Made by a program: the position numbers and the translations under genes. This document shows, piece by piece, positions 826-62,363 of a stretch of DNA of 64,000 bases; within the stretch, counting starts at the first letter, position 1, and every line of letters begins with the position of its first letter. Below the pieces are notes generated by a model, which saw only the letters and a list, made by a program, of their open reading frames with translations, had not been told where the DNA came from and did not search any database. Origin of the DNA: Enorma phocaeensis (GTDB lineage Bacteria; Actinomycetota; Coriobacteriia; Coriobacteriales; Coriobacteriaceae); assembly GCF_016901575.1 (NCBI RefSeq), contig NZ_JACJKQ010000001.1, positions 248,001 through 312,000 of the forward strand. The letters are read 5' to 3'.

Positions 826-2847
826 ATGATTCTCTCTGTTGACAAGATCGAAAAGAGTTTTGGTGCCCGCACGCTGTTCAGCGGAGCTTCGTTTCAGGTC
901 AATCCTGGCGATCGCTTTGCGCTCGTTGGCCCCAACGGTGCCGGCAAGACCACGCTGCTTAAAATCATCATGGGCATCGATGCGCCTGATTCCGGCTCTA
1001 TCACCTTTGCAAAAGACGTCAACGTCGGGTACCTCGAACAGGAGACCAAGCTCGCGAGCGACCGCGCGGTCATCGACGAGGTGACCGCTTCTGCGGTCGA
1101 AATCAAAGCCCTGGGTGAGCGCGCAGAGGAGCTTCAGCTTCAAATCGCCGAGGCGGGGGAGCGCGGCGAGGTCCCTGAATCGCTCATGAAGGAGTATGGA
1201 CACGTCCAGGACCGATTTGAACGCCTGGGCGGCTATGAGCTCGACAGCAACGCTCGCCAGATTCTTGCCGGACTTGGATTTCCGGTAAGCGAATTCAACA
1301 AGCCGTGCCGTGAGTTCTCCGGCGGATGGCAGATGCGCATCGCGCTGGCAAAGCTCTTTCTGCGCCACCCCGACCTTCTGCTCCTCGACGAGCCAACCAA
1401 CCACCTCGACCTTGAGAGTGTCCAATGGCTCCGCGGCTTCATTGCTGGCTACGAGGGCGCCGTGCTCATCGTTTCACACGACCGAGCCTTTATGGATGCC
1501 TGCGTCGACCACGTCGCCGCCATTGAAAACCGACGGGTGACCACCTATACCGGAAACTACAGCTCCTATCTCAAGCAGCGCGAGGACAACCTTGAGCAGA
1601 TGCGCGCCAAGCGTGCCGCCCAAGAGCGCGAGATCGCCCATATGCAGGTGTTTGTCGACAAGTTTCGCTACAAGCCGACCAAGGCGGCGCAAGCCCAGGA
1701 ACGCATGCGCCGCATCGAGCAGATCAAGAGCGAGCTCGTGATCTTGCCCGAGGGTCACAAGCATGTCGACTTCAAGTTTCCAGACCCTCCGCGCTCCGGC
1801 GACATGGTCGTCAAGCTCGAGGAGGTCTCAAAGTCCTACGGAGAGCACCACATCTACAGCGACATAGACCTTACGCTCTACCGAGGCGACCACGTCGCTC
1901 TAGTCGGTCCTAACGGAGCCGGCAAGTCGACCCTCATGAAGATGATTGCAGGAATCGAGCCCCCCACGTCCGGCTCTCGCGACCTTGGCGTGAACGTGGG
2001 CGTCGCCTATTATGCGCAGCACCAGCTCGAGGGGCTCAACGAGTCGAACACCGTGCTACAGGAGATCGATTCGGTCGCACCCAGCTGGACCACGCCCCAG
2101 CAGAGGAGCCTGCTCGGCGCCTTCCTGTTCTCTGGTGAGGACGTCGACAAGCGCGTCGGTGTACTTTCGGGAGGAGAGCGAGCGCGTCTCGCCTTGGCAA
2201 AGATGCTCGTTTCGCCCGAGGCGCTGCTCTGTCTCGACGAGCCGACAAACCATCTCGATATCGATTCGGTCGACATGCTTGAGAACGCCCTTAAGCGCTT
2301 CCCGGGAACGATCGTGCTCATCAGCCATGACGAACACCTGGTGCGAGCGGTCGCCAACCGCGTGGTAGACATTCGTGACGGCAAGATGACCGTCATCGAT
2401 GGGGACTATGACTACTATCTCTTCAAGCGTGACGACCTCGCTGCCCGCGCCGCGGCAGATTCCGCGGCGTCGCAGAGCCCCAGACGATCCCCGTCGAACC
2501 CCGGCCCACGAACGGCGTCTGCTGCTCAGGTCCCTTCCCAACGTGAAGGGAAGAAGACAAAGGAGCAGCGTCGAGCTGAGGCGGAGGCGCGGGCAGAGCT
2601 CAACCGCAGGCTCAAAAAGACTCGCGACGCCCTTAAGAAGGTGGAAGCGAAGCTCGAGACGGCACGCAAGCGATACGACGAGCTCATGGAACTCATGGCT
2701 TCGGAAGAGCTCTATGCCGACCAAGACAGATTTGCCGAGGCGCTCGCCGAATATAACGAGCTCAAGAAGGGCATCCCGGTCCTCGAAGACGAATGGCTGG
2801 AGCTTTCCACCACGATTGAAGAGGAGACCGAGCGTGGACGCGCGTAG
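826..2847 (+). CDS. ABC-F family ATPase
   Basis: The 673-residue soluble protein has two ABC ATPase domains and no membrane segment. ABC-F proteins act on ribosomes, in translation quality control or antibiotic protection. Walker A GPNGAGKT is near residues 35-42, a signature FSGGWQ follows, and Walker B ends in DEPTNHLD. The second domain has [20 protein letters not shown] and DEPTNHLD. A charged linker follows both domains, and the C-terminal ~110 residues form a Lys/Glu-rich coiled coil, as in Uup-like members. ATG 826 is chosen over GTG 817 because AGG lies 8 nt upstream. The overall form suggests a housekeeping type, not a dedicated resistance protein, but the subfamily is uncertain. Confidence 0.93.
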
Positions 2848-12029: not shown

Positions 12030-13033
12030 ACATCACTGTTATCGGCGCGGGATCGTGGGGAACCGCCATCTCGGGCGTCGCTGCCGCCCGTGCCGACCGC
12101 GTATGCGTCTGGTCGTTTGACGAGGAGTCGACGAAGGGCATCAACGAGCACCATGTCAACCCGCTCTATCTTTCCGACTACACCCTCCCTGGCAACGTGT
12201 CCGCCTCCTCGTCGTATGAGGAGGCGCTGCGTGGCGCGGACGGCATCATCGTGGTCGTCCCCTCGCCGTTTTTGCGCGCCACCATCAAAGGCGCGGCACC
12301 CTATATCCCGCACGACGTGCCCGTCCTCTGCCTCACGAAGGGCATCGAGGAGGGCTCCGGCAAGCTGATGAGCGAAGTCGTCGCCGAGGAAATCGGCAAC
12401 CCGGGCCGCGTCGCCGCGCTTTCAGGCCCTAACCATGCCGAGGAAATCTGCAAGGGCAGCCTCTCCGCCGCCGTGATCGCAGCAGAGGATCATGATGTCG
12501 CGGAGTTCTTCCGGTCCCTGCTCATCTCGCCTGAGTTTCGCATCTATGTCACGAGCGACATGATCGGAATCGAGACCTGCGCGGCGGTAAAGAACGTCAT
12601 CGCGATCGTCTGCGGCGTCGCGGCAGGCGCCGGCTACGGGGACAATACGCTCGCCCTCATCATGACGAGGGGTCTCGCAGAAATCAGCCGCATCGTGCAT
12701 GCACGCGGGGGAGACCCGATGACCTGTATGGGCCTTGCCGGCATGGGCGACCTCGTCGCCACCTGCACCTCCCCGCATTCACGCAACCGCTCATTCGGCG
12801 TCGCCTTTGCCCACGGCGAGAGCCTTGAAGACTATCAGAGGCGCACGCACATGGTTGTCGAGGGCGCTGCGGCGGCACGCTCGACCGCCCAGCTTGCGCG
12901 TTCCCTTGGCGTCGACGCGCCCATCACGTTCGCCCTTGAGTCGTCGCTCTATCAGGGCGTCGAGCTCGAAGAGGCTTTGCGAACCCTGCTCGATCGCATC
13001 CCGACCGAAGAATTCTACGGGCTCGACCTATAA
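12026..13033 (+). CDS. gpsA: Glycerol-3-phosphate dehydrogenase [NAD(P)+]
   Basis: GpsA reduces dihydroxyacetone phosphate to sn-glycerol-3-phosphate for phospholipid synthesis. The N-terminal Rossmann motif GAGSWGTAIS is at residues ~6-15. The catalytic Lys lies in ETCAAVKNVIAI, and GMGDLVATC is conserved. At 335 residues it has full length. The ATG overlaps plsY, with AGGAGG upstream, so substrate supply and use are coupled. Confidence 0.96.
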   Translation: MNITVIGAGSWGTAISGVAAARADRVCVWSFDEESTKGINEHHVNPLYLSDYTLPGNVSASSSYEEALRGADGIIVVVPSPFLRATIKGAAPYIPHDVPVLCLTKGIEEGSGKLMSEVVAEEIGNPGRVAALSGPNHAEEICKGSLSAAVIAAEDHDVAEFFRSLLISPEFRIYVTSDMIGIETCAAVKNVIAIVCGVAAGAGYGDNTLALIMTRGLAEISRIVHARGGDPMTCMGLAGMGDLVATCTSPHSRNRSFGVAFAHGESLEDYQRRTHMVVEGAAAARSTAQLARSLGVDAPITFALESSLYQGVELEEALRTLLDRIPTEEFYGLDL

Positions 13034-22929: not shown

Positions 22930-22978
22930 TGGTTTTACAAACCACGTAGGTGTACGTAGGGGTGGCAGCCTATATAAT
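22930..22978 (+). promoter_or_regulatory. degV promoter with operator-like repeats
   Basis: The -10 TATAAT is at 22973-22978. Upstream lies the inverted repeat TGGTTT-TAC-AAACCA (22930-22944). It overlaps the start of two tandem 10-mers, ACGTAGGTGT and ACGTAGGGGT (22944-22963). The -35 is poor, which suggests an activator. The divergent DUF1836 protein is a candidate. Confidence 0.5.
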
Positions 22979-23009
22979 GGAGGTACTGAATGCTGAGGAA
23001 AGGATTTCC

Positions 23010-23891
23010 ATGAGCTGGGCAATCATTGCAGATTCTAGTTGCAACCTGCGAGACTTTCATCCGACGGCGCCCGATGCCATCTATCGATTCGCGCCGCTGA
23101 AGATCAATATCGCCGGTACTGAATATGCGGACGATGAGCACCTTGACGTAGACGAGCTCAACCGCAAGGTTGCCGAAGAGTCCAGTGCATCCTCGAGCTC
23201 ATGTCCCAGCGTAGGGGAGTGGGCGGAGTTGTTCCGCTCCGCAGAGAACGTGATTGCCATCACCATCTCAGCAAATCTCTCAGGAAGCTTTGAAGCTGCC
23301 GTCATGGCTCAGTCCATGGTGCAAGACGAAGGCGGCCATAACATCTACGTCCTCAATTCCCGCGCCGCTGGAGCTAAGCTTGAGCTGCTGGTGGAGGAGC
23401 TCGATCGCTATCTGGCGGCACAGAATCCCACATTCAGCGAGGCGTGCGACTACATTACCAAGCTTGAACAGAACTCGACGGTGCTGTTCTCGCTCAGCAG
23501 CTACGAGAACCTCACGAAATCTGGCCGCATGCCCAAGATGGCAGGCATTCTGGCAAACAAGCTGAATATCCGCATGCTGGGCACCGCGAGCGATGAGGGC
23601 ACCATCAAGGTGATAGGCCCCACCCGCGGCCAGAAAAAGACCTTCGAGAAGATCGTCGCCGCTATGAAGAGCGACGGCTTCGCTGGAGGCATTGTTTATA
23701 TCGACCACGTCGCCAACGAATCGGGCGCGATGGCTCTTAAAGACCGCATCGTGGCCGAATGGCCCCAAGCGCCTGTCCGCGTCGTGCCGTGCGGAGGGCT
23801 TTGCTCGTACTATGCAGAGCGCGACGGGTTCATCATCGGATTTGGATGGCCCTCGACTCAAGACGGCAAGTATTTCACCATCGAGGAGTAA
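23010..23891 (+). CDS. DegV family fatty-acid-binding protein
   Basis: DegV/FakB proteins bind a fatty acid and present it to the kinase FakA. The 293-residue protein starts MSWAIIADSSCNL, with the family motifs SCPSVGEW and ITISANLSGSF and the conserved GR(M/L)PK region (KSGRMPKMAG). ATG 23010 follows GAGGAAAGGA. The promoter carries TATAAT with repeats upstream. No fakA gene is in the window. Confidence 0.92.
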   Translation: MSWAIIADSSCNLRDFHPTAPDAIYRFAPLKINIAGTEYADDEHLDVDELNRKVAEESSASSSSCPSVGEWAELFRSAENVIAITISANLSGSFEAAVMAQSMVQDEGGHNIYVLNSRAAGAKLELLVEELDRYLAAQNPTFSEACDYITKLEQNSTVLFSLSSYENLTKSGRMPKMAGILANKLNIRMLGTASDEGTIKVIGPTRGQKKTFEKIVAAMKSDGFAGGIVYIDHVANESGAMALKDRIVAEWPQAPVRVVPCGGLCSYYAERDGFIIGFGWPSTQDGKYFTIEE

Positions 23892-23923: not shown

Positions 23924-23963
23924 TGGCCCTGAGCTAGCGATGAACGCGGCTCAGGGCCATTTT
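23924..23963 (+). terminator. Terminator of degV
   Basis: The 11-bp stem TGGCCCTGAGC/GCTCAGGGCCA with a 14-nt loop is followed by TTTTC. Confidence 0.9.
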
Positions 23964-24052
23964 CTTACCTAGGTTAAACCTATATGCACGAATACAGCTC
24001 CACACCGGTGAGCCGATCAATCCCAGCATGCAATAGTGGTAGTGATGTTACA

Positions 24053-24080
24053 ACTTAACATAAGATATATTATCAGTAAT
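24053..24080. other. dif: Putative dif site (XerC/XerD recombination site)
   Basis: The 28 bp divide into ACTTAACATAA, GATATA and TTATCAGTAAT. On the minus strand the XerD-type arm is TTATGTTAAGT, 10 of 11 identical to the E. coli arm TTATGTTAAAT. The other arm, ATTACTGATAA, keeps the inner ATAA, and the spacer is 6 bp as in dif. It lies in an AT-rich non-coding patch between convergent terminators of degV and trxB. It also lies where the window's gene direction switches from plus to minus, as expected at a replication terminus. Confidence 0.75.
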
Positions 24081-24096
24081 TGCTATATATTGGCGC

Positions 24097-24143
24097 AAAA
24101 AAGGAAGCGGACCCCTGATTCCTGCAGATCATCAAGGGTCCGC
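24097..24143 (-). terminator. Terminator of trxB
   Basis: On the minus strand a 13-bp stem (GCGGACCCTTGAT/ATCAGGGGTCCGC, one G-U pair) is followed by TTCC and six T. It lies 90 bp beyond the trxB stop and 16 bp from the dif-like site. Confidence 0.85.
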
Positions 24144-24233
24144 GACACGGTACACAACAATCGCGTCGTCATCAAAGGATGCAGCATCATCGACAAGATG
24201 TCCCGCACCCGTGACTGTCAGTATCTCTATAGG

Positions 24234-25181
24234 CTACTTACGGAACTCGCTGACGTACTGATACGCCGCAGTGCCTGCGATGGCTCCATCTGCAGCCGCG
24301 GTGATGACCTGTCTCAACTGCTTTGAGCGGACGTCCCCGGCGCAGAACAGGCCCGGGGTCTTGGTAGCCATATTCTCCTCTGTGATGACGCCACCGTCAC
24401 CACCCAGCTCGACCAACCCAGAGAAGAGCTCTGTCTGCGGAAGCGTGCCCGCGAAGACGAAGACGCCAAAAGATCCCTCGGGATATTCTTCGATATAGGT
24501 TTCTCCGCTCTCGTTGTTTTTGAAGGCAATCGAATGTAGGAAGGTTCCGCCTTCGACCTTGGTGACCGATGTCGAGTATTTCACCGAAATCTTGGGATTG
24601 GCAAGCATGCGATCGACCACGCCCTTGGGCGCACGGAACTGATCGCGCCTTACAACGACGACGACCTCGCTAGCGAAATTCGTCAGGAACATCGCTTCCT
24701 CACAGGCCGCGTTGCCACCCCCGATGACAAAGACCTTTTTGCCGCGATAGAACATGCCGTCACAGGTCGCGCAGTATGATATGCCACGTCCACGATAGGT
24801 GTCTTCGCCCTCAAAACCGACCGTCCGCGGCGTTGCGCCGGTTGCCATAATGAGTGAAGGAGCGCGAAGCTCGTCCTGGTCGGTGACGACGGTAAACGTC
24901 TGGTCTTCCTCATGGCGTACAGCGGTTACCATCGCGTAGACGGTTTTCGCCCCAAGCGCCTCGGCATGCTCCTGGAAGCGCTGCCCGAGCTCCGCACCAG
25001 AAATCTCCTGTATGGCCGGATAGTTCTCAACCTCATCGGTTGTGGCGATCTGCCCGCCAGGCATACCTTGTTCAACGACCAGCACCTGCAGGCTCGCTCT
25101 GGCGGCATAGACGGCAGCCGCATATCCTGCGGGCCCTCCGCCCACGATGATGACATCAGCATTCATTGTTGAATCCGTCAT
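24234..25181 (-). CDS. trxB: Thioredoxin-disulfide reductase
   Basis: This FAD/NADPH enzyme (315 aa) keeps thioredoxin reduced. The FAD-binding GGGPAGYAAA is near the N-terminus, the redox pair CATC (~137-140) is present, and VIGGGNAACEEA binds NADPH. The C-terminal FCAGDVR motif closes the FAD site. AAAGGA lies 7 nt before the start. It is monocistronic, with a terminator at 24097. Confidence 0.96.
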   Translation of the reverse strand: MTDSTMNADVIIVGGGPAGYAAAVYAARASLQVLVVEQGMPGGQIATTDEVENYPAIQEISGAELGQRFQEHAEALGAKTVYAMVTAVRHEEDQTFTVVTDQDELRAPSLIMATGATPRTVGFEGEDTYRGRGISYCATCDGMFYRGKKVFVIGGGNAACEEAMFLTNFASEVVVVVRRDQFRAPKGVVDRMLANPKISVKYSTSVTKVEGGTFLHSIAFKNNESGETYIEEYPEGSFGVFVFAGTLPQTELFSGLVELGGDGGVITEENMATKTPGLFCAGDVRSKQLRQVITAAADGAIAGTAAYQYVSEFRK

Positions 25182-25315: not shown

Positions 25316-26626
25316 GTGACCGATCGCGACGATACCGCTCTCGCGCCTCCGACGCCCGACTCCCCTCTCGCTACTACTAAGGTACCTCATGATATGCAGC
25401 CTGCATCGCAGCCCCCTGTCATGTGCGTCATGCATGCATCGGTTGGATCGGGCCACAAGGCTGCCGCGAAGGCGGTCGCACAGGCTGTCGAGCACATGCG
25501 AGGCACCTTCGGCATTCCGGATAACGTCGTTGTCGACGTACTCGATGTTCTCGACTATGGACGCATACACTTCGACGGCAACAAGACGGCGGCGTCCTTT
25601 ACCGGGGCGACTCGCCCGCTCTACGACATCACCTGGCGATACACCCTCACCGGACGGCTCCTCTGGGGCGGAGGCTCAAGCTGGTCACGCATCATGTTTC
25701 CGAGCTTCAATGCCTACGTCGAGGCGAAACGTCCGCTCGCCATCATCGCCACGCACATCACTGCCGCAAACGTGGCAGTGGGAGCGCGCATGATCACCGG
25801 TATCGATTTTCCCATCGTCTGCGTCCCCACTGACTATGAGACTGAGGGTTGGTGGCCGCATCGAGAAGCGGACCTCTTCTGCGTCGGCACCGAGTCGATG
25901 GCAGAAACCCTTCGCGCGCGTCGCGTCGAAGAGTCGCGCATCGCCATTACCGGCATCCCCATTCGTTGGGGTTTTACCGAGATAAATGATGCGCGTCACA
26001 CTCGAGACCAGTACAACATACCTCAAGACAAAACCATGGTGCTCGTTATGGCAGGCGCCAGTCTCCCCCAGCCTTATGTGCGCTTCAGAGCGGCAATCGA
26101 GCAGACCATCCCCTATCTACGGGGCTTTGACGACATGCACTTCGTCTTTCTTCCTGGCAAAGACGCAGACTATGCCCGCCATCTTCGTTCGGTTTTTCAG
26201 GGCATGAAGCTCGAAAACGTGAGCGTCCTGGACTATGTCGACGATATGCCGGCGCTCATGCATGCGGCGGACCTCGCCATACTGAAATCTGGCGGCCTCA
26301 CGGTAACGGAATGTCTCTGCGCCCACCTGCCGATGATCCTTCTTGGAAAGTCCTATGGACAAGAGAAGGTCAATACCATCATGTTGACGTCATGGGGCGC
26401 AGGAATGCACGTCACCACGGCCCGTGAGCTCATAACGACCATGAAGCACCTGCATGACAACCCTGCATCACTCGAGGCGCTCGTCATCAACGGAGACGCT
26501 TTGAGACGCCCAAACGCCGCAGAGGCAATTGTGAGGCATACGATGGAACTCGTTGGACATGCCAAGCGCCGTCCCATTCATTTTGCCGAGTTCTACTGGG
26601 GAGACAAGCCCGCCCATACTCGCTAA
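25316..26626 (+). CDS. Diacylglycerol glycosyltransferase (MurG/MGDG-synthase type)
   Basis: The 436-residue GT-B enzyme has an N-terminal MGDG-synthase domain beginning MHASVGSGHKAAAKAVAQ. A C-terminal glycosyltransferase-28-like domain follows, with ILKSGGLTVTECLC and LGKSYGQEK. Relatives add glucose or galactose to diacylglycerol to make membrane glycolipids or lipoteichoic acid anchors. About 35 extra residues, rich in Pro/Thr, precede the domain. GTG 25316 follows AAAGGAG. A -10-like TAAAAT is at 25275. Sugar and acceptor specificity are unknown. Confidence 0.87.
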   Translation: MTDRDDTALAPPTPDSPLATTKVPHDMQPASQPPVMCVMHASVGSGHKAAAKAVAQAVEHMRGTFGIPDNVVVDVLDVLDYGRIHFDGNKTAASFTGATRPLYDITWRYTLTGRLLWGGGSSWSRIMFPSFNAYVEAKRPLAIIATHITAANVAVGARMITGIDFPIVCVPTDYETEGWWPHREADLFCVGTESMAETLRARRVEESRIAITGIPIRWGFTEINDARHTRDQYNIPQDKTMVLVMAGASLPQPYVRFRAAIEQTIPYLRGFDDMHFVFLPGKDADYARHLRSVFQGMKLENVSVLDYVDDMPALMHAADLAILKSGGLTVTECLCAHLPMILLGKSYGQEKVNTIMLTSWGAGMHVTTARELITTMKHLHDNPASLEALVINGDALRRPNAAEAIVRHTMELVGHAKRRPIHFAEFYWGDKPAHTR

Positions 26627-28117: not shown

Positions 28118-28555
28118 TTAGGCACCGCTTGAGCCAAATCCTCCGCTCCCGCGTTCGGTTTCGTCCAGCTCATCTACCTCAACGAGATCGACGACGGGAA
28201 CCTCTTGGATGACGAGCTGGGCGATTCGCTCTCCCCGCTCGATGTGAATGGTCTCATGCGCATCGAGGTTGATTGCAATCACTTTGAGCTCGCCACGATA
28301 GCGAGCATCGATGAGACCCGGGGTGTTGACGATAGAAAGGCCGCGTTTGAGCGCCATGCCGCTCCGCGGCTGCACGAACCCGGCATAGCCGTCGGGCAGC
28401 GCGATAGCAAGGCCGGTAGGGATGAGCACGCGCTCATAAGGCGCGATGTCCAGCGTGGCTGCCGAACGTAGATCAAGTCCAGCATCACCAGGATAGGCAT
28501 AGGAAGGGAGCTCGACCTCGGGGTCGAGACGCTTGATGGGAACAGTGATGGTCAT
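28118..28555 (-). CDS. dut: dUTP diphosphatase
   Basis: Dut hydrolyses dUTP to dUMP, keeping uracil out of DNA (145 aa, trimeric family). All five motifs can be seen: PGDAGLDLRS, PRSGMALKRG, NTPGLIDARYRGEL, RGERIAQLVI and the C-terminal RGSGGFGSSG. ATG 28555 is preferred, with AAGGTG upstream. GTG 28564 overlapping the nrdR stop is an alternative. Confidence 0.95.
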   Translation of the reverse strand: MTITVPIKRLDPEVELPSYAYPGDAGLDLRSAATLDIAPYERVLIPTGLAIALPDGYAGFVQPRSGMALKRGLSIVNTPGLIDARYRGELKVIAINLDAHETIHIERGERIAQLVIQEVPVVDLVEVDELDETERGSGGFGSSGA

Positions 28556-28560
28556 AGGTG

Positions 28561-29004
28561 TCACCTTAGCTTGTCGAGCTCTTGGAGGAACTCATTGATG
28601 TCTTTGAAATCGCGATACACTGAAGCAAAACGGATGTAGGCAACCTTGTCGAGCTTCTCAAGACGCTTGAGCACCATGTCGCCAATCTCATGTGAGCTCA
28701 CGGCGGTAAGCGTGCGACCGCGCAGCTCGAGCTCGATATCATCGATGAGCGCGTTGAGCTGCGTAAGGTCGATGTCTCTCTTCGACGTGGCGCGCATGAG
28801 GCCGACAAGCAACTTGTTACGGTCAAACGGCTGCGTCGAGCCATCGCTTTTGATGACCTCGATGGGGTCTTCGCAGCGTTCGAACGTCGTAAAACGATAT
28901 CCGCATGAGCGGCACTCACGGCGACGCTTGATAGCATTCGTCGCATCTTGCATGCGCGAGTCGACGACCCGCGTGTCCTCACCACCGCATTTGGGGCAGC
29001 GCAT
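28561..29004 (-). CDS. nrdR: Transcriptional repressor NrdR
   Basis: NrdR represses ribonucleotide reductase genes according to dATP/ATP level. The zinc ribbon MRCPKCGG...CRSCGYRF is at the N-terminus, followed by the ATP-cone domain (VIKSDGSTQPFDRNKL). The length of 147 residues is standard. GAGGAGG precedes the ATG. It is the first gene of an nrdR-dut-permease unit; no nrd reductase gene is in the window. Confidence 0.96.
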   Translation of the reverse strand: MRCPKCGGEDTRVVDSRMQDATNAIKRRRECRSCGYRFTTFERCEDPIEVIKSDGSTQPFDRNKLLVGLMRATSKRDIDLTQLNALIDDIELELRGRTLTAVSSHEIGDMVLKRLEKLDKVAYIRFASVYRDFKDINEFLQELDKLR

Positions 29005-29721: not shown

Positions 29722-30360
29722 ATGGCACGCAAGATTTCAAAGCGCCAGCAGCAGATCTACGATTTCATACGCTCGTATCAGCTTGAGAAGGGCTATCCGC
29801 CCAGCGTACGTGAAATGGCCGCAGCGGTTGGACTCTCCTCCCCCTCCACCGTCCATGCACACCTGAGCGTCCTCGAGGAACATGGCCTCATCAAGCGCGA
29901 TGCAACCAAGCCGCGCGCGCTTGAGGTCTTCAACGAAGACGGAACGTCGGCCACGCTTGCCGCCGTCAAGGAGTCTCCCGACCGTGGGACCATCACCCTT
30001 CCGCTCGTTGGCAGGGTCGCCGCAGGCCTTCCCATACTTGCCGAACAAAATGTTGAGGACAGTTTCACCGTGCCGACAGAGATTGCTACGGATTCAAGCT
30101 CCTTTGTGCTTGAGGTGCACGGCAACTCGATGGTCGAGGCAGGCATCTTCAACGGCGACTACATCATTGTGCGAGAGCAGAAGAACGCCATGAACGGCGA
30201 GATCGTCGTGGCACTCATCGATGGCGAGGCTACCGTCAAGACGTTCTATAAGGAACAGGGCAGGGTTCGCCTTCAGCCGGAAAACTCAACGATGGGGCCC
30301 ATCTACGTTGAAAACCCCACCATCTTGGGCAAGGTTGTAGCGCTTATGAGGCGCTTCTAG
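29722..30360 (+). CDS. lexA: SOS repressor LexA
   Basis: LexA (212 aa) represses DNA-damage genes and cleaves itself when RecA is activated. The winged HTH occupies residues 1-65 (RQQQIYDFI, PPSVREMA). The cleavage site is the Ala-Gly in GRVAAGLP (~102), the catalytic Ser is in HGNSMVEAG (~136) and Lys in TVKTF (~172). ATG 29722 follows GAGAAAGGG. Its promoter region holds three LexA boxes, and recA at 40 kb holds another. A DUF1624 gene follows after 2 bp. Confidence 0.97.
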   Translation: MARKISKRQQQIYDFIRSYQLEKGYPPSVREMAAAVGLSSPSTVHAHLSVLEEHGLIKRDATKPRALEVFNEDGTSATLAAVKESPDRGTITLPLVGRVAAGLPILAEQNVEDSFTVPTEIATDSSSFVLEVHGNSMVEAGIFNGDYIIVREQKNAMNGEIVVALIDGEATVKTFYKEQGRVRLQPENSTMGPIYVENPTILGKVVALMRRF

Positions 30361-36306: not shown

Positions 36307-37863
36307 CTATTTTGCGATATCGACGGCGCGGCTCTCGCGAATGACTACGACGCGAACCTGGCCAGGATACTCCATCTCCTCCTCGATCTGATGGGCGATG
36401 TCGTGCGCCAAGACGGTCGACTGGGCATCGGAGATCTTGTCAGGCTGGACCATGACGTGGACCTCGCGGCCGGCCTGCATGGCATACGTGCGCTCAACAC
36501 CGTCGTAGGAGTTAGCGATCTCCTCAAGCTTCTCAAGACGCTTGATGTAGTTCTCGGCAGATTCACGACGAGCACCAGGCCGCGATGCGGAAATGGCGTC
36601 ACCGGCCATAACGAGGACGGCGAGGACCGAAGAGGGATCGACGTCGCCATGATGCGCCTCGATCGCATGAACGATAGCGGGCTTCTCTCCATAACGACGG
36701 GCAAGGTCCGCACCGATGACGGCATGGGGGCCTTCGACTTCGTGGTCGATGGCTTTGCCAAGGTCATGCAAAAGGCCGGCGCGGCGCGCGATGACCGGAT
36801 CAAGGCCAAGCTCAGACGCCATGATGCCGCACAGCTCGGCGACCTCGATGGAATGCTGCAGCACGTTCTGGCCAAACGACGTGCGATAACGAAGGGCGCC
36901 AAGGGTTTTGACGAGCTCGGGATGAAGGTCATGGATGCCGGCATCAAAGGCAGCCTGCTCGCCCGCCTCGCGCACACGCTGCTGAACGAGATTCGAGGCC
37001 TTTTGATACATCTCTTCGATACGCGCGGGATGAATGCGCCCGTCTGCGATGAGGTTCTCGAGTGCCACGCGGGCGGTCTCGCGACGAACCGGATCGAAGC
37101 TCGAGAGCACGACCGTCTCAGGAGTGTCATCGATGACGAGATTGACGCCGGAGACCTGTTCGAAGGTGCGGATGTTGCGGCCCTCGCGACCGATGATGCG
37201 CCCCTTGAGGTCGTCCGAGGGGATGTGCACCGAGGTAACGGTGACCTCAGCGGTATGATCGGCGGCACAGCGCTGAATCGCGAGGGAGATGATCTTCTGG
37301 GCCGTCTTTTGGCACTCGTTCTTTACGCGCTGCTCGGACTCGCGAATGATGGTCGCCGCCTCGTGCGTGACGTCGCCACGGACCTTGTCGAGAAGCTCCT
37401 TGTGAGCGTCGTCGCGGGAGAGCTCGGCGATGCGCTCGAGCTCGGTCGTCTGCTTGGCATAGAGCGCCTCGAGCTCGCGACTGCGCTTTTCGACCTGTCC
37501 GGCTTGGCTGGAAAGCTGATGCTCGCGTTTGTCGAGGGCATCGTTGCGACGGTCGAGGGACTCTTCGCGCTGCATAACGCGATTCTCGAGAGCACGCAGC
37601 TCGCGCTTGCGCTGCTTCTCCTCTGCCTCGGCAGCCTGCTTGTTCTGAATGATCTCTTCTTTAGCCTCGAGCAAGGCCTCCTTCTTCATGGTCTCAGCTT
37701 GACGCTGAGCATCCTCGATGACCTGGCCCGCCTTTGCGCGCGCCGACTCAAGCTGGGAATCTGCTTCACGCAGGCTCCCCCGCTTTGCAGATCGCATAGC
37801 GATGACGGCTGCGACAGCGCCGATCACCAGGCCGAGGATTCCGATAGCAATCTCCATGGCCAC
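36307..37863 (-). CDS. rny: Ribonuclease Y
   Basis: RNase Y (518 aa) is a membrane-anchored endoribonuclease that starts mRNA decay. It has an N-terminal transmembrane helix ([17 protein letters not shown]), a long coiled coil to ~200, a KH domain with [12 protein letters not shown], and an HD domain with GLLHDLGKA and the following EAHHGDV. AAGGAG precedes the ATG. A promoter lies ~150 bp upstream. RNase J and PNPase, its usual co-workers in RNA decay, are encoded 10-14 kb away. Confidence 0.96.
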
Positions 37864-43439: not shown

Positions 43440-44726
43440 CTACTGGGCAGCCGCAGCCCCGTCATTGGTTCCATCAGTGGTTTCGGTGCCGTCGCCGGTT
43501 GTCGTCGCCGGTGTCTGCGGAGCGGTGATGCTCACGCGGGCGACGCCGGCGATGGAGGTATCCCAGCGGACATCCTCGCCATTTTGCGTCACGCGGACGT
43601 TTCCGGGCTCGCTCGCCGTGATCTCAATCGAAGAGGTCACGGTATATTCCTGGGTCAAAGGCCCGACGACGTTGTTCGCATAGATCGACTGGCCGTTTAA
43701 CTTGATCTCGAGCCACGACTGGGCCCCGTCCTCGACCGAAATGGCGATCACAAGCTGCTCCGGCTCAGACGTCGTTGCAGGAGAGGTCGCTGAGGTCTGG
43801 TCGGTGCTGGGCTCGCCTGTCGAAGCCTCGGTATCAGGTGTGGTCGCAGCTGTCGTCGAGGCAGGCGTGGTGGCGGCCTGGCTCACGGCAACCGTCGACG
43901 GGCTAGAGGTGTCATCGGCGCCCTGAGAAGAGCAGCTGCGCACCAGCAGGAACACGAGGGCGATGATGATGACGAGGGCCGTGACGAGCGCTCCTATGAG
44001 CAGGCGCGGATCGAGGCCGCCGTTGCTCGACGACCCTCCCCTGCCGCCCCTTCCCGAGCGCGGGGGCACCGATCCACGCGCGCCCTGTGGACCGCGCGGA
44101 GGGTTTCCGCCCCCGCGAGCAGCCATGCGGGCGCTTCCCGGACGAGGCGACGCTCCGTAAGGCGGAGCGGTTCGAACACGGGGCTGGACACGCGTGCGGT
44201 CGAGCTCGTCTCCGGGCAACGCACGCGTATTTTGGTAGCCGCGCGGCTGGCGCATGCCGGCGGCCGCCAGCGTCCTGTCAGGACGCCGCGTGTCGGTCAG
44301 CGCGACGGGCTCGTGCCCCGACGTGGCGTCGGAAACATATCCCGCCTGCGGGGGGCGCTGGGCATACCGCGAGCTGATGCGGGCGTTGTCGACGATCATG
44401 AAGCGTCCGGTGGCGCTGGCTGAGCGAGGACTCACCGAACCTGCAGCGTCCTGAAAGCGCCCGCCTGCATGCGCCGTCTGGCGCTCATATTCGTAGAGCT
44501 CGTCGAAATAGGCATTGACCACCTCGCGGGGGTTGAGGCCCAGATAGCGCGCATAGCTCGAAATCATGCCCTGGGCATAGCCGCGAGGCGGCATCGAGGC
44601 GAAATCCCCCATCTCGAAGTACTCGATGATCTGGGGGCGGATCTTGATGACGTTGGCGACCTGTTGAATGGACATGCCCATGTGACGACGCCTGTTCATG
44701 AGCATCTCACCGAACCGTGCAGCCAT
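43440..44726 (-). CDS. RodZ-like protein with HTH, membrane helix and low-complexity linker
   Basis: The 428-residue protein has an N-terminal helix-turn-helix (residues 1-80; [34 protein letters not shown]). A ~160-residue linker rich in Arg, Gly and Pro follows, then one transmembrane helix (~245-268). A Thr/Ser/Ala-rich outer linker leads to a RodZ C-terminal (DUF4115) domain. RodZ couples MreB to the cell-wall machinery. Whether this organism has MreB cannot be seen here. The ATG overlaps the ftsK stop. Confidence 0.85.
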
Positions 44727-47521
44727 CAGAAACCTCCCATTCCATCATCTTCAGCCATCCGAGACTCAAGGGACTCAAGCTCGGCCAGTCCCTCGGCATC
44801 GAGCAGCACCTCACGGGGCTTGGAGCCATCGGGAGGACCGACGACGCCCTTCTCCTCAAGCATATCCATGATGCGTCCGGCTCGCGCATACCCCACCTTG
44901 AGGCGGCGCTGCAGTCCCGACGTCGAACCGAGCTGGGATTCCACGACGATCCGGGCGGCTTCCCACAGCAGCGGGTCGTCGTCGGAGACATCATGCCCGC
45001 CCCCTCCGCCGCCGATGGCAGCAGGAGCCACGGCGGAGAGGATCTCGGTATGGTAGTCGGCAGGGCTCTGCTCCTTTACGAACCCGACGACGCTGAAGAT
45101 CTCCTCATCCGAAACGTAGCAGCCTTGGATGCGCTTCGGCTTTCCCCAGTCGACCCGCGAGAACAGCATGTCGCCCTGACCGATGAGCTTCTCTGCACCC
45201 GTCTGGTCCAGAATGACGCGGGAGTCGATGCCGGTTGCGACCGTAAGGCCGATACGGTTGGTGATGTTCGCCTTGATGAGACCCGTCACCACGTTCGAAC
45301 TCGGACGCTGCGTGGCGACGATCATATGGATGCCGGCGGCACGTCCCAGCTGGGCGATGCGCACGATGGACGCCTCGACGTCCTTTCCCGCAACCATCAT
45401 GAGGTCGGAGAGCTCGTCGATGACGATGACCAGGTAGGGCATCTTGGCGGGAGGGTTGTCGTATTTCTCGAACTCGCCGGCAGCCTGCTTCTCGTTGAAC
45501 GTCGAGATCTTGCGCACGCCGATGCGTTCAAACACCTTGAGGCGTCGCTCCATCTCGGAAACGGCCCACTGCAAGGCGCTCGCAGCCTGTTTGGGCTCGG
45601 TCACGACCGGCACGTAAAGGTGCGGCAAACCGTCGTAGGGAGCGAACTCGACGCGCTTGGGGTCGACCATGATGAGGCGGACATCCTCGGGGAAGGTGCG
45701 CATGAGAAGGCTCATGAGGATGGAGCTGATGACCACCGACTTACCGGAACCTGTCGTACCCGCGATGAGGAGATGGGGCATCTTGGCAAGATCGGCAACC
45801 ATGGGCTGCCCCTCGGCATCTCTGCCGAGCGCAAATTCGAGGGGCCCGCCCGTCACATAGGGCAGGATGTCGCCAAACGCAACCGTCTGGCGGGTGCGGT
45901 TGGGAATCTCGATGCCCACAAGAGAGGTGCCTGGGATGGGCGCGAAGATACGCACCGAATCCGTGGCAAGCGAAAGGGCGATGTCATCTTCGAGATTGGT
46001 GATGCGGCTCACGCGCTCGCCTTCGCCCGGCTGCACCTTGAAGGTCGTGACGGTCGGTCCGGCGATCCAGCCAACTACCCGCGAGTGCAGGCCAAACTCC
46101 TGAAGGGTTGACTGCAGCCCCTCTGCCGTCTGCTCGAGCTCCCGGTTCGACGAAGCGGAGCTCGCGGAGTTGGGGTTGTGGCGCAGCATCGACGCCGGAG
46201 GAAGCTTTCGATCCTCTTCCTCGGGGGTCGCGCCGTCGGCAGGCTTGACCGAAGGAGCCTTCGAACGAGGAGGCACGCTCGATGCCTCCTCGACAGGACG
46301 ATCAGACGGCGCGTCGTAGGACGAGCCGTCGATGACCGTTGTGGCAGCCGCGTCGGAAGCGGCGTGCCTCTTAGGATGCATGAGAAAGTCAGGGATCGCG
46401 GGGGCGCCAGGGTTCATGACGCGCGTGGCGCCCTCGAAGGGCGGCTCGTCTTCAAGGTCGCCCAGGCCGGTCGCCTTGTCGTCAAGCAGGACGGTGGGCG
46501 CGCTGTCGGCGGCGTCCCCGCCTCGAGATGACGACGCATCCTCGCGGACATCGCTGCGATCGCCCTTGTCTTTGCCGGACGCCTTCTTCTTTGAGCGCCC
46601 CTTGACCAGGCCTGAGAGCAGCGTGGTCTCCGCCTTCTCAGCGGCAAGCTGCTCGGAAAGATCGACGAAGGGGTCTTCATCCTCCTCGTCTGCCCCAAGC
46701 ACCGTGGTCTCTCGATTGCCCAAAAACGTTGTCTCGGCGGTCCCGTCGGCGTCGAAAAGGCTTGCCTGGACGGCACCGGCGCGAGGCGCTTTTGGAGTCA
46801 TGGCCGCATGCGGCGCCTCGTCGCCCCACGGCTTGTCGTTCACATCGACATGTCGACGCTCCGCAAGACGCTCCGCCCGCTCTGCCGCCGCGCGCACGAC
46901 GCCGCCGACGGAGAAGCCTATGAGCACAAGCCCCGAGACCAGGATACCAGAAAGCACGACCATGGCGATCACCTTGCCGAGGGCGCCGGCGAGCACCGAG
47001 GCGATGGCATAGCCGACATACCCGCCGCTCGCAGCAAGATCGGCCTCGCCGACCGTCAGGCCCCACACCATAGGGTCGCCCGTCAGCGCAAGCACCAGCA
47101 TGGAGATGACCGAAAGGAAGATGAGGCAGACGCCGGCAAGGGTGCGAACGTTGAACACCGAGCGGTCGCGCAGAAACAGCGTGGCAGAGAACACCAGAAG
47201 ACCGAGCGGCAAGACATATCCTCCCAGGCCGAAGCCAAGATGATAGAAGGATGCCAGGGCACGGGTCAGCGGCGCCGTCGCCGGAGAGAGCACCGCGATG
47301 AACGACGCGACGGCGAATACGGCGACGACCACGCCTGCGATATCGCGGGCGGCCGACGCTGTCATCAGGGGCTCAGACGGCTCTTCGATGGCGCGAGCGG
47401 CGGGACGGCTGCCATTGGCGCGCAGCTTGGCCTGAGCCTTGCCGCCCTTGGCAGCCGCCTTGGTCGCGGTCTTTTTGTTCTTCGTTCCGGCAGTTCCGGA
47501 AGATCCAGCGCGACGTGCCAC
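44726..47521 (-). CDS. ftsK: DNA translocase FtsK/SpoIIIE
   Basis: FtsK (931 aa) pumps chromosomal DNA at the septum and activates XerCD at dif. About four membrane segments lie at residues ~50-215, followed by an acidic low-complexity linker to ~440. The motor domain has Walker [11 protein letters not shown] (~587) and Walker [11 protein letters not shown]. The C-terminal gamma winged helix contains [21 protein letters not shown] in parts. The start GTG 47521 is preceded by GGAGG, 9 nt away. A probable dif site lies in this window. Confidence 0.95.
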
Positions 47522-55168: not shown

Positions 55169-56165
55169 CTGAGGCCCCCTTTCCTGCTTTCGGCCGGCGC
55201 CTGTCAGAGGCGCCGATACGCTCCTCAAAGGCATCATACGCCTCGACGATGCGCCCCACGAGCGCATGGCGCACCACATCGGTGCGGTCGAGGTGGATGA
55301 ACGCGACGTCCTCGACGCCGGCCAGAATCTCCTCGATATCGGTGAGGCCGCCCCGGCGCCCCATGAGGTCGCGCTGGGTGGTATCGCCCGTGACGATGAA
55401 TTTGGAATTGAAGCCCAGGCGCGTGAGGAACATCTTCATCTGCTCGGGCGTCGTGTTCTGCGCCTCGTCGAGCACCACGAAGGCGTCGTTCAAGGTGCGG
55501 CCGCGCATGTAGGCGAGCGGGGCGATCTCGATGATTCCCTGCTCGACGAGCTCCCCGCCGCGCTCCATATCGGTCATGTCGAAAAGCGCGTCGAACAGCG
55601 GGCGGACATACGGGTCGATCTTTTCCTGAAGGGTGCCTGGCAAAAATCCGAGGTTCTCGCCCGCCTCCACCACAGGGCGCGTCAGCACGATGCGGCCGAC
55701 CTCATGTCGCTTGAGGGCGGCCACGGCCATCGCCATGGCGAGATAGGTCTTACCGGTGCCCGCAGGCCCCATGCAGAACGTGACGGTATTCGAGCGAATG
55801 GCATCGATGTAGCGCTTCTGGCCCGCGGTCTTGGGGCGAATGGCCTTTCCGCGATACGTGAGCAGGATGTCGTCGCGAAACCCCGTGGAGCCCAAGGCCC
55901 CCTCTCGAAGCGAGGCCATCATGCGCACGACATCGTCTTCGGCGACATGGCGCCCGTGGGAGGCCTCGCGAATGACGTAGGAGAACAGCTTGGTAAGTAT
56001 CTCGACCTCGTCGGGAGTTCCCGTCAAGGTGATGGTGCCCCCGCGAACGACCACGTCGCCGGTGGTGCGCCGCTCGATTGCACGAAGCAGCGCGTCTCCC
56101 CCGCCGGTGATGCCCACGGGGTCGACGCCGTCGGGAATGCTCAGCCGAACCTTCGCCGTGTCCAT
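55149..56165 (-). CDS. phoH: PhoH-like ATPase (YbeZ)
   Basis: The 338-residue protein has an N-terminal KH-like region and a P-loop ATPase domain with GPAGTGKTYLA, VLTRPVVEAGE and VVLDEAQNTTPEQMKMFLTR. PhoH proteins are ATPases linked with RNA metabolism and functionally tied to YbeY. The start at 56165 follows AAGGAG. Confidence 0.94.
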   Translation of the reverse strand: MDTAKVRLSIPDGVDPVGITGGGDALLRAIERRTTGDVVVRGGTITLTGTPDEVEILTKLFSYVIREASHGRHVAEDDVVRMMASLREGALGSTGFRDDILLTYRGKAIRPKTAGQKRYIDAIRSNTVTFCMGPAGTGKTYLAMAMAVAALKRHEVGRIVLTRPVVEAGENLGFLPGTLQEKIDPYVRPLFDALFDMTDMERGGELVEQGIIEIAPLAYMRGRTLNDAFVVLDEAQNTTPEQMKMFLTRLGFNSKFIVTGDTTQRDLMGRRGGLTDIEEILAGVEDVAFIHLDRTDVVRHALVGRIVEAYDAFEERIGASDRRRPKAGKGASGGRAHQ

Positions 56166-58791: not shown

Positions 58792-59910
58792 CTATATCCA
58801 AAGATATGGTCGGTAGAACATGCCGCTCGAGCAGCTTACGAACCACACGGCGATAAGCGCGTAGAGCAAGGCGTTGCCCGCACCCGAAAGCATGCGCGAA
58901 ACCCCGCGCTTCCACCACAGGCCCGATCGATGGAGCACGTCGTCTTTCAGGACCAGGTAGAGCCCTGCCACAAACGGAACGAGGCACACGAGCGCAAAGA
59001 GCGAGACCACACCGCTTACCGCCGAGAGCAGCAGGAACGGGATCACGAAGCCCACGATGTAGAAGCCCTTATAGGCGCTCCCCTCGAGACGCTCTGCCGC
59101 CACATGGGCGCGGCCCACGAGGTCTCCTGAAGACGCGCCGTTGGTGCCGGCATGGCCCATGCCCTTGATGCGCACCGTCTCGCCGTCGTGAACACCAGCG
59201 GGGAACTCGATGACAGCCTCCGACATGACCTGCCGGCGCCCGGAGCCGCCGCAGTCGGGACAGGGGTCTGCCACGACCTTGCCGCTGCCGTTGCATTCGG
59301 GACACACCATCTGGAACATCCCGCCGCCGAAAAGGAACGACATGTCGACGCCGATGACGCCCGTACCGCCGCAGCTGGGGCATGTGTGGGCATGCTCGGA
59401 AGATACCGAGCCGGAGCCGCCGCAATGCGAGCAGGGCTCGTAACGACGGTATTTCACGCCCTTGCGTGCGCCCGCCTTGACCTGCTCGGGCGTGAGCTCG
59501 ACGTCAACCACCACGTCGGCGCCCGCCTCGGGATTATAGGCTGAGCCGCCCTGGCGGCCACGCTGCGCCCAGCTGCCGCCAAACGGAGAGCCTGCAAACG
59601 GCGAGCCACCGAACGGCGAGCCATAGCCTCCATAGCCGGCGGCTCCCCCGCCGCCATAGGCAGAGGCCCCTCCTCCGGCAAACGGCGAGCCCGAGCGCAT
59701 GGCGTCATAGCGCGCTCGCTTCTGCTCGTCGGACAGCACCGCGTACGCCTCCGAGACCTCTTTGAATTTTTCCTCGGCATCGGGGGCCTTGTTGACATCT
59801 GGATGGAGCTTGCGCGCCTTCTGCTGAAAGGCCTTCTGGATCTCCTTTTGAGACGCGTCTTTAGAAACGCCCAGAATGGCGTAGTAATCCTTCTCGTTCA
59901 TGGTGGCCAT
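58792..59910 (-). CDS. Membrane-anchored DnaJ-like protein
   Basis: The 372-residue protein has a J domain (4-68, HPD at 36-38) and a long Gly/Phe/Ser/Ala linker (72-125). A CTD-I part follows with four CxxCxGxG repeats at 160-225. CTD-I ends near 270 with GDLVGRAHV. The expected second C-terminal domain is missing. In its place are three hydrophobic segments (~283-299, 301-321, 346-363). It probably recruits DnaK to the membrane. Start 59910 follows GGAGG at 11 nt; 59901 is an alternative. It lies between hemW and dnaJ. Confidence 0.85.
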
Positions 59911-62348: not shown

Positions 62349-62363
62349 CGAACTCCCCCCAGT

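Follow-up and report, generated by a model that had tools for sequence, protein, structure and literature searches.

The 28-bp sequence at positions 24053-24080 of the window (the whole stretch of DNA that was analysed, 64,000 nucleotides, corresponding to bases 248001-312000 of the 383-kb contig C1) is almost certainly (probability about 0.96) the dif site of this chromosome and an ordinary example of such a site. The dif site is a 28-base spot near the end point of replication, at which the recombinases XerC and XerD separate joined chromosome copies. The parts of the site are as follows:

24053-24080, minus strand: dif site, 28 bp, with the minus-strand reading ATTACTGATAA-tatatc-TTATGTTAAGT
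24053-24063, minus strand: predicted XerD-binding arm TTATGTTAAGT, identical to E. coli dif at 10 of 11 positions and near-invariant in the family
24064-24069, minus strand: dif central region TATATC, 6 bp, 5 of 6 positions invariant among 32 aligned family copies
24070-24080, minus strand: predicted XerC-binding arm ATTACTGATAA, with inner GATAA invariant and outer half variable in the family alignment

Identity and conservation of the dif site

The site had been proposed from the letters of the window, and the forward-strand sequence ACTTAACATAA-GATATA-TTATCAGTAAT was found exactly at the positions given above. It has the layout of a dif site, namely two 11-bp arms with an inner dyad around a 6-bp centre. 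The resemblance of the minus-strand arm TTATGTTAAGT to the XerD arm of E. coli was also borne out (10/11), and this arm is identical at 9/11 positions to that of Bacillus subtilis and at 10/11 to that of Frankia alni, the identities over the whole site being 20/28, 20/28 and 18/28, respectively. A profile built solely from these three published sites (PMC3025954) gave a score of 30.2 at 24053-24080, against 14.3 at the next best non-overlapping place in the 383-kb contig and 19.8 as the best score over 20 random sequences of 383 kb. Moreover, a search of the 2.36-Mb genome gave a single copy of the 28-mer, even with 3 mismatches allowed, and no matches for the control; none are expected in shuffled sequence. 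No better dif match was thus found elsewhere, by the 28-mer in the genome or by the profile in its own contig.

Conservation in related genomes, on which the sequence-only reading had made its claim depend, is extensive: at up to 3 mismatches the 28-mer was found in 67/67 genomes of the family and 277/300 of the class, the remaining 23 of the 300 class genomes giving no match at 3 mismatches. The core pattern occurs once at up to 2 mismatches in each of the 67 family genomes, and the reversed control pattern had any match in just two of them. An extra match at 3 mismatches, GATAAGAAATCTTATATGAATT, was seen in eight family genomes and looks unrelated to dif. In the family alignment (32 copies, 31 of them distinct, and with the core belonging to the search pattern) the inner arms and five of the six central bases are invariant, and variation is seen at most flanking positions and in the outer half of the XerC arm. 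The information is accordingly about 2 bits along GATAA-tatat-TTATGT-A and falls outside it and in the outer half of the XerC arm; the conservation of the flanks is inflated because many close relatives are in the alignment. The same core is present in Sphingomonads, Acidobacteria and Omnitrophota, which is what an identity as dif predicts.

In one genus of the class (g35, comprising G266, G304, G236 and genomes without a match) the site is weaker (GATAATCGTTGTTATGTAAAGT) or was not found at 3 mismatches, and dif may have diverged there. No description of dif for this gut-associated class was found in the open-licence literature searched.

The site lies in the small gap between two converging genes, each followed by a terminator:

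22950-23891, plus strand: DegV-family protein gene (PF02645), left neighbour of dif, beside or near it in most Coriobacteriaceae
23925-23966, plus strand: terminator hairpin of the degV-like gene (-32.7 kcal/mol, z -6.3), upstream boundary of dif
24094-24144, minus strand: terminator hairpin of the trxB-like gene (-28.0 kcal/mol, z -3.3), downstream boundary of dif
24234-25181, minus strand: thioredoxin-reductase-like (trxB-like) gene (PF07992), right neighbour of dif, adjoining it in Coriobacteriaceae and often in Atopobiaceae/Olsenella

The convergent terminators that had been noticed around the site are real, both being folded hairpins followed by a T run; they were found by folding and were missed by a simple scanner. 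Genes for LexA and an HflX-type protein (by Pfam) lie within about 8 kb of dif, as do the reading frames at 28118-28564 and 28561-29004, which on reading them we take to be dut and nrdR. The degV, trxB and DUF1836 neighbours travel with dif in most Coriobacteriaceae, and homologues of trxB, dut, nrdR and lexA are found near dif in many records of Atopobiaceae/Olsenella.

Mobile elements do carry dif-like sites, and the 28-mer might be the attachment or resolution site of such an element (an IMEX phage, or a plasmid site of the cer/psi type) and not a chromosomal dif. Indeed, class relatives have second, weaker matches, one of which (G260, L261) shares its contig with a phage terminase gene and another of which (G272, L260) has a tyrosine integrase gene nearby. 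A mobile site would however be patchy in its distribution and vary in its neighbourhood, whereas the 28-mer is single copy in its own genome, is flanked by conserved genes of housekeeping type common to the relatives, and has a single strong match in each of the family genomes, opposite dnaA in relatives; this uniform presence and stable neighbourhood make a mobile origin very improbable. Phage records searched with 241 bp around dif gave no match, and none of the 15 exact matches of the core in viral contigs was accompanied by a match to the ten genes around dif. Being an imperfect palindrome between two genes, the 28-mer could also be an AT-rich palindrome arisen by chance or an operator of its neighbours. 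Nevertheless it is downstream of each gene and enclosed by their convergent terminators, a position in which no promoter operator is expected. No matches to it are expected by chance, the 28-bp format is kept across the class with the core present also in the three distant groups named above, and both a conservation independent of the neighbouring genes and a position opposite dnaA were seen, so that this explanation is scarcely to be entertained.

Second dif-like sites with altered centres were observed in the class relatives at L261 (G260, contig C18), L260 (G272, contig C9), L259 (G220, contig C2) and L262 (G168, contig C15). It is possible that these belong to mobile elements which use Xer or are plasmid resolution sites.

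The terminus region and the Xer and FtsK genes

The distance from dnaA to dif was taken from four relatives that have both on one near-complete contig, the genome studied here being in 108 contigs, and amounts to 45.2% (G008), 45.8% (G007), 45.6% (G032) and 47.9% (G025) of the circle of the main contig. A location opposite oriC/dnaA was thus found in these four relatives, and the genome studied here was assessed by skew and motif polarity only. In its own contig the change point of AT skew lies at 246 kb, 26 kb from dif at 272 kb, and the maximum of G+T excess at 235.6 kb, some 36-37 kb from dif; these offsets are 1.1-1.6% of the genome. In the single-contig relative G008 the cumulative GC skew, computed from sampled 20-kb stretches, has its maximum at about 600-680 kb, with dif at 707 kb, and its minimum at about 1.72-1.74 Mb, with dnaA at 1.75 Mb. 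The expectation of a skew extremum near the site therefore holds for AT skew, G+T excess and the GC skew of G008, but not for the raw GC skew of the own contig, whose extremum is blurred and whose best change point, at 128 kb, is away from dif. Raw GC skew of the window by itself was rejected as a guide to the terminus, being misleading: at fourfold-degenerate sites the coding strand prefers C, and for this reason the skew over the plus-strand genes of the left block is negative.

The two gene blocks that had been said to point at each other do exist, but they do not make contact with dif, since strands alternate between 22 and 31 kb. About 65% of the coding DNA in the 383-kb contig is transcribed toward dif, and the pattern of all plus and all minus genes is thus the locally most pronounced form of a bias that is weaker overall. 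Of the claim for a replication terminus, the terminus region stands and the exact termination point at dif does not. Replication has been published as not strictly ending at dif (Kono et al. 2011, PMC3025954; a 2026 study, PMC13342612) and the terminus is therefore kept here as a region. The evidence supports dif as marking the site of dimer resolution inside that region.

The proteins that would act on the site are encoded in the genome. XerD scores above its curated cut-off and is on contig C67. An XerC-like recombinase, about 35 kb to the left of dif on the same contig, scores 299.4, below the NCBIfam cut-off for XerC (335.15), and is above the cut-off for the general PRK00283 recombinase. 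The genome also encodes an FtsK with a gamma domain:

44726-47521, minus strand: ftsK, coding for a 931-aa DNA translocase with a gamma domain; the gene is about 20 kb from dif, toward which it is transcribed

In five genomes, which represent four families (G000, which is the genome studied here, G008, G173, G130 and G069), the end of ftsK encoding the gamma domain is at a distance of 19-27 kb from dif, and in 5/5 the gene is on the XerC-arm side of dif and transcribed toward it. Binding and cleavage of the 28-mer by XerC and XerD, with activation by FtsK, would be expected by analogy with the known XerCD/dif/FtsK system.

Some further features of the Xer genes were observed. The XerC-like gene is 35 kb from dif in this genome and 67 kb in G008 (L115, L117), in both with a similar gene upstream that by eye is TrmFO/GidA-like, and in L115 it is followed by an rpsB-like gene. 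A protein of 362 aa (L118, G000 contig C23) is the third XerC/D-like recombinase of this genome and is below the cut-offs for both XerC and XerD.

GGGGGAG as a candidate signpost for FtsK

KOPS are sequences that orient FtsK, and the words of other lineages are known to differ from the GGGNAGGG of E. coli. When all heptamers were ranked by their leading-strand excess in the own contig and G008 combined, GGGGGAG was first of 11,916, with 69:2 copies pointing toward dif in the own contig and 91:4 in G008. The E. coli word GGGNAGGG reaches 45:15 in the own contig; GGGGGAG does not fit it and is the more polarised of the two in 4/4 genomes compared. Copies in the window include:

1155-1161, plus strand: GGGGGAG, pointing to dif
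12707-12713, plus strand: GGGGGAG, last plus-oriented copy before dif
26063-26069, minus strand: GGGGGAG, first copy past the polarity flip
29838-29844, minus strand: GGGGGAG, pointing to dif
37775-37781, minus strand: GGGGGAG, pointing to dif
56096-56102, minus strand: GGGGGAG, pointing to dif
59643-59649, minus strand: GGGGGAG, pointing to dif
62353-62359, minus strand: GGGGGAG, pointing to dif

In this genome the sign of the polarity changes between -11.3 and +2.0 kb of dif; the corresponding intervals are -1.3 to +1.2 kb in G173 (one of two equal optima), -4.3 to +5.0 kb in G130 and -1.3 to +0.04 kb in G069, which places the flip no more than about 1-11 kb from dif across genomes of four families. 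GGGGGAG thus combines a leading-strand excess with a flip of polarity at dif, as KOPS do, and can be regarded as a candidate KOPS, its reading by FtsK being hypothetical.

The recognition helix of the FtsK gamma domain has one sequence in this genome, G008, G173 and G069 and another in G130. Compared with GYNRAARMIEAME of Pseudomonas aeruginosa FtsK, the Arg is kept and the first Glu is replaced by Asp. In E. coli FtsK, R1300 and E1303 are needed for KOPS recognition (PMC2680272), and the kept Arg and the Asp in place of Glu would align with these two residues if the numbering is taken from the R-x-x-E-x-x-E spacing. It may be that in Coriobacteriia a lineage-specific GGGGGAG is read by a gamma helix that differs from the proteobacterial form, with Asp for the Glu aligned to E1303, and steers FtsK from both arms of the chromosome to dif, a proposal that we hold at even odds.

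The polarity of GGGGGAG could instead be all there is to it, the word being skewed by a G-rich leading strand or by the co-orientation of genes with replication and being no guide for FtsK. Further G-rich words are skewed too (GGGGAGG 54:15, GAGGGGG 45:14), the increase in density of GGGGGAG toward dif is a weak trend (Spearman -0.33, p 0.04, in one relative), and in G173 the polarity is weaker, at just 121:34. However, heptamers of equal composition that are well populated reach only about 3-4:1 and stay far below the ratios of GGGGGAG in the own contig and in G008. In addition, genes oriented head-on to replication keep its leading-strand excess (100:13 over four genomes), and transcription direction is therefore not its cause. 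Polarity without guidance is on these grounds rather unlikely.

The resolution of dimers would be expected to proceed as in the known system. Recombination would join two sister chromosomes into a dimer, and FtsK at the septum would pump DNA toward the terminus, possibly steered by G-rich words of the leading strand, most strongly GGGGGAG, whose orientation flips at dif. Once FtsK had brought the two dif sites side by side, XerD would be switched on by the gamma domain of FtsK and would cut at the TTATGTTAAGT arm; XerC would afterwards exchange strands at the ATTACTGATAA arm, giving two monomers.

A firm dif provides a landmark of the terminus region for a gut-associated bacterial class, and a class-wide set of such sites can anchor the orientation of assemblies and estimates of replication rate from sequencing depth, besides helping to recognise mobile elements that integrate via Xer. 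Moreover, GGGGGAG allows a direct test of the drift of FtsK recognition words between lineages.

Comparison with known systems

The site shares with E. coli dif (GGTGCGCATAATGTATATTATGTTAAAT, the target of XerCD; PMC3025954) the 11+6+11 layout, a single copy, a place in the terminus region, an XerD arm identical at 10/11 positions and the presence of FtsK and Xer genes in the genome, and differs from it in an overall identity of 20/28 and an XerC arm of 6/11. With the predicted actinobacterial dif of Frankia alni (CACGCCGATAATGCACATTATGTCAAGT; PMC3025954) it has in common the GATAAT...TTATGT core, the phylum and an XerD arm of 10/11, whereas the centre is identical at 2/6 positions and the whole site at 18/28. 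The signpost GGGGGAG, which may be a known motif in a form specific to the lineage, is perhaps the sole part that is new. Like E. coli KOPS (GGGNAGGG) and the SRS of B. subtilis SpoIIIE, it is a short G-rich word of the leading strand that flips at dif, in a genome encoding an FtsK gamma domain. Unlike in E. coli, the strongest word here is GGGGGAG, and the gamma helix differs from the GYNRAARMIEAME of P. aeruginosa.
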